NCBI RefSeq assembly: GCF_963675165.1
Contig: NC_087387.1
Location: 1,973,501 to 2,037,500, forward strand
DNA: 64,000 nt
Direction of reading: 5' to 3'
Origin: Halichondria panicea
Taxonomy: Eukaryota; Porifera; Demospongiae; Suberitida; Halichondriidae
Within the stretch, counting starts at the first letter, position 1. Each line of letters starts with the position of its first letter. This document shows positions 24,521 through 63,988 of the stretch, in pieces. The notes beneath the pieces were generated by a model. The model was not told the DNA's origin and searched no databases. It saw only the letters and a list, made by a program, of their open reading frames with translations. The position numbers and the translations under genes are program-made.

Positions 24521-26774
24521 ATGCAACTGACAGAGCAGTGGATATCGTGTACCTTGCTGCTGACCTTAGCAGCAGCACTGCTGACAGGAGGGGCAAAAGG
24601 ATCAGCTCAACTGTATGATTTTGGGATTATGGCCTCTGATGGCCAATTGAACAATGCAGACGATCTCTACATGCAAGTGAATCTCACAGACTCATTAACC
24701 TATCTGGGAGGTGCAGAGAAAGAGATTTTTGTAAGCACAATATCCACTATTTATATTATATATAATTATAGCGAAGTGAATTCATCAACTTTGTATTTTC
24801 TATGCTGTTTGGCTAACATTCTATGCAGCACTATAGTGTCGTGTCGGGATCAGTACTAGATTCTATACATGTTTTCCTTTTTCTTTGGGTTCTCATTGAC
24901 TATAATTTTTGTGCATGCAGCATAATAATGTTATTATGTTTCGGAGCATTTAGTTTGGTGTGGCTTTTAAATATATAGGGCTTTTTGTTTTACTATGGGA
25001 TGGGTGGCACAGTTTATCGTTCCGGTTAAGGCGCTTATTTATATGTGCCCAGGGGGTGGGTATAGGAGGGGGAGTATCCCCTCCCGCCCCGCCAGAGGCA
25101 AACATTTTAAAACTTTACTCACAATTTAACGTTTGAACTTTGAATGAGTTGCAAACTACCATGCAGAAAATCAGCAAATATTTTTGCAAATGCGTTCAAA
25201 TAATAGCTCAATTTGCAGCAAGGTAGAAAGAGGAAACGAGGATTCAGAAAAATCATAATAATCATGAAGAATGAATACAAAAGACCTTCTTTATTCAGCA
25301 AAAATATTGGCCAGTTTAAGTCCGGTTGCCAACAGGCAAACTCATTGGCTGAGACTCCTTGACATTGTTATAGCTAGGCCCTGATAAATTTTGCTTTTTT
25401 CACTCATTATTCTATTCTTTAATTCTTAAAATGTGCCTATTATTCTCATAAAAAATCCGATTATTCTCTGATTATTCTCATAAAAATCTGATTATTATAT
25501 ACCAATAACAAACTTAAGACGTATATATAAACACAACACACATGCAACTGATCAAGATATATAGTTAATGTATCATGATTCTGTATTTTCTCGCTGACTT
25601 GAAATATTCCGACACTCAAAATTAAGTCTTCCTAAAAGAAGGGCGGCTGATTCATGGGACACTTTTTACCATGAGAACATCTTTACCAAAAATGGACATT
25701 GATGCCTATTATTCCCAATTATTCTTGAGACACCTATTATGCTAAAATTATTCCGAGCATAGTTTATCAGGGCCTAGTTATAGCACTGGCTCAGTCTTTA
25801 GTTCTAAACTATTCGTGGTGCCAGAAGAATGCACTGAAGAATGCATATACTCAATCACAATTTCATGCACTGCATGGGAACAACTCTTTGTGACATAAAT
25901 GCACACATACACACAAACAGATCGGTATAAATGGCATGTTGCTGTTTAACGATCCAAATCAAGGCATGGTCGCTCCGTTCTTTGCAGACATTGACACAAG
26001 AGGAACAGGAAATGTGTATTATCGGTGAGTTATGAATACCAAGATAATTTGGTGTGCAGTTTATATTGGACTAAACTCTTAATGAGGCTCCTTTTTATAC
26101 AGAGTATCTACCAATGTCAGTATTCTGGCGTCTGTTGGAGAGAGAATTCAGAGAGCATTTGACGATGTGGTCTCCTTTCACCCGAAATCAGTGTTTGTGG
26201 GGACCTGGGATCGAGTTGGCAGCTATGACAGAGGAACAGATAAGGTGTGCTTCACTACATTCAACTCTGACTCTAGTTTTCTTGAATGTGGTATATAGCC
26301 ACAGCAAAATTATATTCTTACAAGTAAATATTAGTGTGAAAATCAGCATTTCTAATCTTTCCTTGTCGGAATTATACATGCAGGTCAACACCTTCCAAGT
26401 CGTCATTGCGACAGACTCCTTGTCGTCATATGTGATCTTTCTGTACTCTGACCTCCAATGGTACATCCCTATCACGTCATCTGGAAGTGGATCTGGCATA
26501 GCGTTGACCAGCAGTGGCGGCAGCGGCAGGTGATTATACTAATTATGTGCCGTCAATTATAGCAAGGAATTTTTGATTTTCGATTGCATTTTCCCTAACA
26601 GTGGTATGCCTGTTCTGATGCCAGCCTTTAGCGGATTCCAGAAACAAAGTGGAGCCCTGGCGTACACATTACCAGGATCTGGCACAGAGCAGATACTGTT
26701 GCTAAGCAACACCAGTAACGTTGGAGAGCTTGGCATCTGGGTATTCAGAGTCGACAGTGAGATACAACCAGGAG
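24521..26774 (+). CDS. Giant gene exons 1-5: signal peptide and NIDO domain
   Basis: Exons 24521-24730, 25921-26024, 26103-26244, 26384-26529, 26602-26774 (258 residues). [20 protein letters not shown] is a typical signal peptide, probably cut after GGAKGSA. The rest matches the nidogen NIDO domain: [66 protein letters not shown] and [12 protein letters not shown] domains occur in nidogen, tectorin and mucin-4-like matrix proteins. These first introns have mixed phases (0, 2, 0, 2), while everything after uses phase 1, so the repeat array was attached at the phase-1 edge at 26774. ATG 24521 is chosen because the upstream ATG at 24513 stops after five codons. Confidence 0.85.

Positions 26775-63988: not shown

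Follow-up and report, generated by a model that had tools for sequence, protein, structure and literature searches.

The window analysed here comprises 64,000 nucleotides of the genome of the sponge Halichondria panicea (contig C11, positions 1973501-2037500). It contains a chain of exons encoding a signal peptide, a NIDO domain and many SRCR and EGF domains, which an initial annotation had followed to the end of the window as one gene and left open there. Where does this chain end, and what kind of protein does it encode? With the numbering continued past 64000 for the downstream DNA, the chain runs for a further 42 kb and into two GPS domains and a 7tm_2 domain. Since it does so, the chain is predicted to encode a membrane-bound receptor belonging to the adhesion G protein-coupled receptors (GPCRs). 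The finding is larger than first noted: the window holds about the first half of a giant receptor. One gene very likely encodes the whole of it, from NIDO to the seven-transmembrane (7TM) domain.

Exon chain, domain order and receptor class

The DNA examined included 30 kb upstream and 80 kb downstream of the window. The exon chain was built by a splice-aware Viterbi gene finder, which was seeded with SRCR matches only, was supplied with no exon list and was retrained on its own output. The splice penalties were raised after cheap splicing had produced one gene of 1,657-1,999 exons (rounds 1 to 5). The training set was extended with codons from 7TM, GAIN and leader stretches chosen by hand; without them exon 1 was largely missed, along with the 7TM exons. 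Curation by hand removed five tiny doubtful exons (28231-28269, 32188-32208, 34842-34868, 96601-96603, 100631-100633), exchanged the stub 82389-82409 for a full SRCR half, reversed one pair of exon extensions in module 1 and divided one fused exon in module 5. Across curation the model went from 16,893 to 16,862 and then to 16,840 residues.

The resulting gene lies on the plus strand at 24521-106019 (C11:1998021-2079519). It has 308 exons and 307 introns and encodes 16,840 residues from ATG to stop with no internal stops; the coding mRNA would be 50.5 kb long, and the calculated mass of the protein is 1.80 MDa. The introns are GT-AG in 306 cases and GC-AG in one, and all junctions from intron 5 through intron 284 are in phase 1; since the finder itself enforces agreement of phase and GT/GC-AG borders, neither is independent proof of the exons. 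The finder produced no genes on the reverse complement or on any of eight dinucleotide shuffles, compared with 300 exons on the real strand at the same settings. As it was trained on this locus, the control excludes only noise as the source of the chain.

Within the window, the final model has 150 exons between 24521 and 63988 and 149 in-phase junctions (145 in phase 1, the first four in phases 0, 2, 0 and 2), and contains 38 of the 76 SRCR and 82 of the 147 EGF domains. All four counts agree with the initial annotation; the residues number about 8,112, where at least 8,120 had been given. A single signal peptide and NIDO domain had been placed at the start, and one hydrophobic leader and one NIDO were indeed found. 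The description as seven modules of six SRCR and thirteen EGF domains holds for modules 2-6, but module 1 has four SRCR domains and module 7 is cut by the window end. Exon lengths, said to be constant between modules, are nearly so; a few positions vary (e.g. 159/168, 180/192, 117/123, 123/126).

The whole protein has one signal peptide, one NIDO, 76 SRCR and 147 EGF domains in the order NIDO-EE-SSSEES-E11-(SSSEESSS-E11)x8-SSSEESSS-E5-SSSEESSS-E5-SSSEESSS-E6-SSS-E6-SSS-HRM-GAIN-GPS1-Ig-HRM-GAIN-GPS2-7TM, where S is SRCR and E is EGF. The layout first proposed, NIDO-(SRCR/EGF)n, is therefore correct but incomplete. The SRCR domains were counted with a profile of our own (76 hits) and the EGF domains with a cysteine pattern (147 hits); a second rule also gave 147 EGF-type exons. 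Pfam was run on the N-terminal 760 and the C-terminal 1,530 residues of the joined protein. The first piece contains NIDO (E 4.1e-41), SRCR (2e-54) and EGF_CA (3e-20), the second two stretches of GPS (5e-27) and 7tm_2 (6e-27). Six-frame Pfam searches of the genome (131 Mb, 39 contigs), which do not depend on the gene model, place NIDO, SRCR, two GPS and 7tm_2 in this order on C11. TB (8-Cys) domains, which in fibrillin lie between the EGF domains, are absent from the two Pfam-scanned pieces, the middle ~14,550 residues being covered by the SRCR model and the EGF pattern only. Residues 29-15700 of the giant protein include 1,523 cysteines. N-X-S/T sequons number 408 upstream of GPS2, and the EGF pattern for Asp/Asn hydroxylation matches 135 times.

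Several observations lead us to assign the giant protein, with high confidence on its sequence, to the adhesion GPCRs (class B2). The second GPS directly precedes the first helix (GPS2 exons 103741-104007, 7TM exon from 104082) and contains a cleavage motif with a Stachel-like sequence, CKCSHL↓TNFAILV. The HL↓T/S triad is the adhesion GPCR cleavage signature. Of the 28 solved sequences matched by the GPS2-7TM region, 27 are adhesion GPCRs, with ADGRG2, ADGRL3 and ADGRG6 first; the single exception, at rank 27, is the calcitonin gene-related peptide receptor. With 76 SRCR domains and 7tm_2, the protein has both features of the receptors of Krishnan et al. 2014, multiple SRCR domains and an adhesion-class 7TM.

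The initial annotation had suggested a role in matrix, self-recognition or microbe binding. Nidogen, SNED1 and tectorin are secreted NIDO matrix proteins, and the giant protein also has a NIDO domain; however, the C-terminal 7tm_2 excludes a secreted form of this type and points to an adhesion GPCR in the membrane.

Table 1. Parts of the giant receptor gene. Positions are those of the window, continued past 64000 for the downstream DNA.
Part	Position	Position on C11	Strand
Exon 1: start codon, signal peptide, start of NIDO region	24521..24730		+
Exons 2-5: NIDO (PF06119), residues 83-253, E 4.1e-41	25921..26756		+
Exons 6-7: first two EGF domains	26853..27143		+
Module 1, short form: 4 SRCR, 13 EGF, 19 exons	27199..34273		+
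Module 2: 6 SRCR, 13 EGF, 23 exons	34328..40145		+
Module 3: 6 SRCR, 13 EGF, 23 exons	40201..45396		+
Module 4: 6 SRCR, 13 EGF, 23 exons	45451..50622		+
Module 5: 6 SRCR, 13 EGF, 23 exons	50677..56061		+
Module 6: 6 SRCR, 13 EGF, 23 exons	56116..61441		+
Module 7, first part, to end of exon 150 at 63988 (module end 68162)	61488..63988		+
Rest of module 7, modules 8-9, membrane-proximal SRCR/EGF stretch	64039-98533		+
First HRM-GAIN-GPS unit	98660-100264	2072160-2073764	+
Ig-like domain	101067-101575		+
Second HRM-GAIN-GPS unit	102337-104007	2075837-2077507	+
7TM and cytoplasmic tail	104082-106019	2077582-2079519	+

Integrity of the gene and growth of the array

A head-to-head pair of paralogues was found on contig C2 (C2:6941630-7021461), with Pfam matches from 6,969.9 to 6,941.6 kb on the minus strand and from 6,974.0 to 7,021.5 kb on the plus strand. 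Both contain NIDO, SRCR/EGF, two GPS and 7tm_2 in the order of the giant gene. The leader of the giant gene is also encoded in both; the two C2 leaders are nearly identical and begin with MQLTEQ(Y/C). The start codons are ~290 bp apart, so the two genes probably share a promoter. The models are 9,928 and 6,279 residues long (about 9.9k and 6.3k), with uncertain last and incomplete first exons; earlier models of 9,688 and 5,964 residues have SRCR/EGF counts of 42/74 and 24/33. In Ephydatia muelleri, NIDO, 11 SRCR, 11 EGF_CA, two GPS and 7tm_2 are combined in one 3,374-residue model, Em0023g296a (P0135).

These three models, each reaching from NIDO to 7TM, bear on the possibility that the finder has falsely joined at least two genes on C11, the first for a secreted protein of NIDO, SRCR and EGF domains and the next, further downstream, for an SRCR-bearing adhesion GPCR of smaller size. 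Inside the gene, the introns that start at 24731, 27355 and 65366 are longer than 1 kb, and NIDO, SRCR and EGF are combined without 7TM in two related Ephydatia models, P0131 and P0134, which may be truncated predictions, and in the Trichoplax protein P0192. On the other hand, 267 of the 307 introns are not longer than 150 bp (12 exceed 300 bp), and phase 1 is kept from intron 5 to intron 284, though the finder favours in-frame chains. The last SRCR exon is separated from the HRM exon by an intron of 126 bp (98534-98659; 156 bp in both C2 paralogues), which leaves little space for one gene to finish and another to begin. Signal peptides at module borders had been named at the outset as a sign of several genes. 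Among the introns, 41 reach 150 bp or more (14.2 kb together), and a scan of these yielded no signal-peptide exon candidate; it covered single introns, so that an intron-split leader or an in-exon start would escape it. Candidates were ATG exons of at least 45 bases with a hydrophobic leader, an acceptable donor and the right phase, the hydropathy cut-off being 1.8; the true exon 1 scores 2.44 on this scale. We consider a false joining improbable.

The single giant gene thus remains the preferred reading, and several points in addition to the long introns and the models without 7TM count against it. The finder was trained on its own locus, and about ten exons were curated by hand. The structure is a prediction from genomic DNA. 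The Ephydatia models are predictions, and Em0023g296a has 185 residues before the likely leader that are seemingly not part of it. In the C-terminal piece HRM (8e-5) and Ig_3 (7.5e-4) are under the Pfam curated cut-offs, and no GAIN model of Pfam matched this piece; GAIN is a putative assignment from GPS and from the profile match of the two units given below.

The only introns of the array longer than 1 kb are one of 1,921 bp in module 1 (27355-29275) and one of 1,430 bp in module 7 (65366-66795, C11:2038866-2040295). The latter might harbour inserted sequence or an internal promoter. At 31896-32072, an intron of the giant gene contains a 43-bp unit repeated about four times.

Eight modules are full, each with 23 exons and 5.2-6.7 kb in length. 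In their 28 pairs the identity is 0.90-0.95 in exons and 0.60-0.81 in introns, and the nonsynonymous (dN) and synonymous (dS) divergence is 0.03-0.07 and 0.15-0.29, respectively (Nei-Gojobori counts, Jukes-Cantor correction, exon edges trimmed). Tandem modules of this length are a repeat type that can be misassembled, and their number might have been inflated by misassembly of near-identical repeats or haplotypes. However, exons differ by 5-10% and introns by 19-40%, which is too much for haplotype or assembly duplicates and marks the modules as real and old; with this divergence and the above dS the copies are separable by long reads. In the model, frames stay open and splice sites intact in every copy, and we regard an inflated count as very improbable.

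The ratio dN/dS is 0.17-0.26 in all 28 pairs, which indicates that the protein sequence of the modules is under purifying selection. Conceivably, the array is decaying or mostly skipped, the true protein being short and some or most modules unused. As 281 of the 308 exons are symmetric (1-1), skipping would be frame-silent and short isoforms would arise easily. However, the low dN/dS throughout and the lack of in-frame stops in the 308-exon model argue for modules in use, and a largely unused array is very unlikely.

In a tree of 18 module starts (first 12 exons per module; bootstrap not settled), modules 1-9 of the giant gene cluster together (97/94), separate from the C2 modules, and the two membrane-proximal modules group with their C2 counterparts (100/100 each). 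The separate clustering of modules 1-9 indicates that the array grew inside the giant gene after its split from the paralogues.

Relatives and the double joint

At the 7TM end, the five top-ranking relatives all come from E. muelleri. In a tree of 19 rows picked from the matches, in which deep branches are weak, the 7TM of Em0023g296a groups with the giant gene with support 96/99. Among the best 120 of the 146 matches of the N-terminal query (3,428 residues), Em0023g296a is the only protein joining NIDO, SRCR, EGF and 7TM; most others are SRCR-only or EGF-only proteins of other animals. Both protein searches were restricted to candidates of 0.55-1.75 times the query length, and equally giant relatives could not be listed. 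Em0023g296a and a second Ephydatia protein, Em0151g10a (P0133), share with the giant gene the alternation of SRCR and EGF, two GPS and 7tm_2, and the former also the NIDO domain. They differ in having only 11 and 13 SRCR domains (3,374 and 3,577 residues) and in the first GPS, which is KL↓G and HL↓G, respectively.

Adhesion-class GPCRs with multiple SRCR domains have been described in Amphimedon queenslandica (Aq712029 and Aq715659; Krishnan et al. 2014, PMC4302439), where they were called unique. They are set apart from the giant gene by description only, as the NIDO head, the tandem GAIN/GPS, SRCR/EGF modules and giant size are unmentioned in the parts of that paper available to us; HRM is reported there in at least eight adhesion GPCRs of this sponge. 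According to the accessible text of a survey of invertebrate SRCR proteins (PMC10855680), the commonest partners of SRCR in Amphimedon are EGF_CA, cEGF and FXa_inhibition, and 7tm_2 is among the five top partners in Acanthaster planci (Table 1 therein). The combination of SRCR and 7tm_2 is therefore not confined to sponges.

Pfam finds 16 SRCR and 21 EGF_CA stretches in a protein of Geodia barretti named Fibrillin-2 (P0130). Judged solely by visual inspection and motifs, HRM-like, GPS1-like (HL↓T), Ig-like and second HRM-like segments follow in the order of the giant gene. Unlike the giant gene, P0130 has no NIDO, and its model breaks off ahead of a second GPS and 7TM. A Pfam scan (E up to 0.01) gave no TB, GPS, HRM or Ig match, and an NCBIfam search gave no families. 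The name is unsupported, as no TB domain was found in the Pfam scan; P0130 looks like a truncated model of a member of the giant-receptor family.

Two further adhesion GPCRs resemble the giant gene in part. ADGRV1 (VLGR1) is likewise very long and has a repetitive ectodomain, but it has ~6,300 residues with Calx-beta, pentraxin and EPTP domains, and SRCR, an EGF array, NIDO and a second GAIN are not named in the consulted portion of PMC8878244. It has been called the largest adhesion GPCR (PMC9146371; PMC8878244) and is part of the stereocilia ankle links (PMC10238197, PMC12361621), as stated in the available excerpts. The NIDO-HYR adhesion GPCR of Asterias amurensis (P0015) combines NIDO (a partial match), GPS and 7tm_2. 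It differs in its HYR repeats, its one GPS stretch and its length of 1,472 residues, and its 7TM falls outside the clade of the giant gene.

In the literature, a survey of H. panicea has NIDO and GAIN in the legend of a receptor figure, and the combination is not described in the text as far as it was accessible (PMC8242945). In the available text of a 2026 review of adhesion GPCRs (PMC13197933) there is no mention of SRCR, scavenger receptor, sponge, Porifera or nidogen, and in that of PMC12716839 none of SRCR or NIDO. No description of a NIDO-SRCR-EGF GPCR, of such size or of a double GAIN was found in the searched portion of the open PMC literature. Thus SRCR-bearing sponge adhesion GPCRs are known, and the size, the NIDO head and the double GAIN predicted here are seemingly new relative to these sources.

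The two HRM-GAIN-GPS units, an unusual tandem arrangement, match each other in a profile-profile comparison by hhalign with probability 99.84 over 317 columns (6 and 5 sequences), the controls scoring 37.0 for SRCR, 0.29 for EGF, 0.18 for NIDO and 0.09 for 7TM. This comparison has its own weak side: the SRCR control, even when trimmed, keeps a weak local similarity (E 4e-4, 41 columns), and before trimming it scored 99.83, as the 400 upstream residues still contained a real SRCR tail.

The second GPS is HL↓T in all five members that have it. The first varies: it is HL↓S in the giant gene and the plus-strand C2 paralogue, HL↓G in the minus-strand C2 paralogue and in Em0151g10a, KL↓G in Em0023g296a and HL↓T in the Geodia protein (motif only). 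T, S or C after HL is the nucleophile of the GPS cut, and G should block cleavage. Since only GPS1 varies, the joint next to the membrane seems to be strictly conserved and the distal one optional.

Two GPS matches within ~2-4 kb beside 7tm_2 were also observed at C15:3873170-3878589, C3:3976357-3981081 and C13:766126-769156 and 775890-779075. The double joint may thus extend beyond the SRCR/EGF receptor family.

Possible mechanism and other features of the window

The array of SRCR and EGF domains, the latter of the calcium-binding Pfam type, could form an extended tether. If each domain of the array adds ~2.5-4 nm, the tether would measure roughly 0.55-0.75 micrometre. The binding partner of the NIDO head or of the flanks of the array might be the matrix, an adjacent cell, a particle or a microbe. 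GAIN2 would cut itself at HL↓T, and the huge fragment would remain non-covalently bound; pulling it off or loosening it would expose the tethered agonist TNFAILV to the 7TM, and G protein signalling would follow. GAIN1 would act as a second, duplicated joint, cut or uncut depending on the gene. The array would lengthen through in-gene duplication of the 23-exon modules. The chance that the array acts as a tether or force sensor is about even.

Another possibility is that in the same receptor the array serves mainly for recognition of microbes or food particles, as in an immune-type scavenger GPCR, and not for adhesion or force sensing. The SRCR is known as a ligand-binding module. Sponge SRCR and GPCR genes shift expression on microbial cues (PMC6208332, PMC11229196, in the parts available). 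However, the NIDO head and the long rows of calcium-binding-type EGF domains favour a tether, and the dN/dS values show constraint with no module-level sign of diversifying selection. We consider a mainly scavenging role rather unlikely, and the two roles, mechanical and immune, may both hold.

The number of SRCR domains per gene is 11-13 in Ephydatia and 24, 42 and 76 in the three genes of the studied genome. The same exon symmetry that would permit skipping means that splicing or unequal exchange can vary the tether in frame. It is an evenly balanced proposition that these genes form an undescribed sponge family of two-joint adhesion GPCRs with evolving tether length. In this reading the giant member would be a tether of less than one micrometre, serving mechanics or recognition, and both of its joints (HL↓S and HL↓T) could be cleaved. 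With 16,840 residues it would be larger than any GPCR in the portion of the literature searched, and 2.7 times ADGRV1.

A sponge is an animal without neurons or hair cells. With a receptor of the predicted length in such an animal, the idea of adhesion GPCRs as force-gated tethers could be tested at an extreme. The duplicated HRM-GAIN-GPS would be a natural experiment in which one joint is invariant and the other variable, and the three genes in one genome would show the growth of a giant protein by in-frame module duplication.

A search of the window against Rfam at gathering scores gave no matches, and 1,529 bases searched against a phage collection gave none either. On the minus strand, an open frame at 15413-16054 contains a SEFIR domain (E 2.7e-6), which belongs to signalling of the interleukin-17-receptor type. 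On the plus strand, an open frame at 5381-6166 contains a methyltransferase domain (Methyltransf_11, E 1.1e-11). An uninterrupted (GT) dinucleotide run of 339 bases, with 100% matches, lies at 8065-8403.

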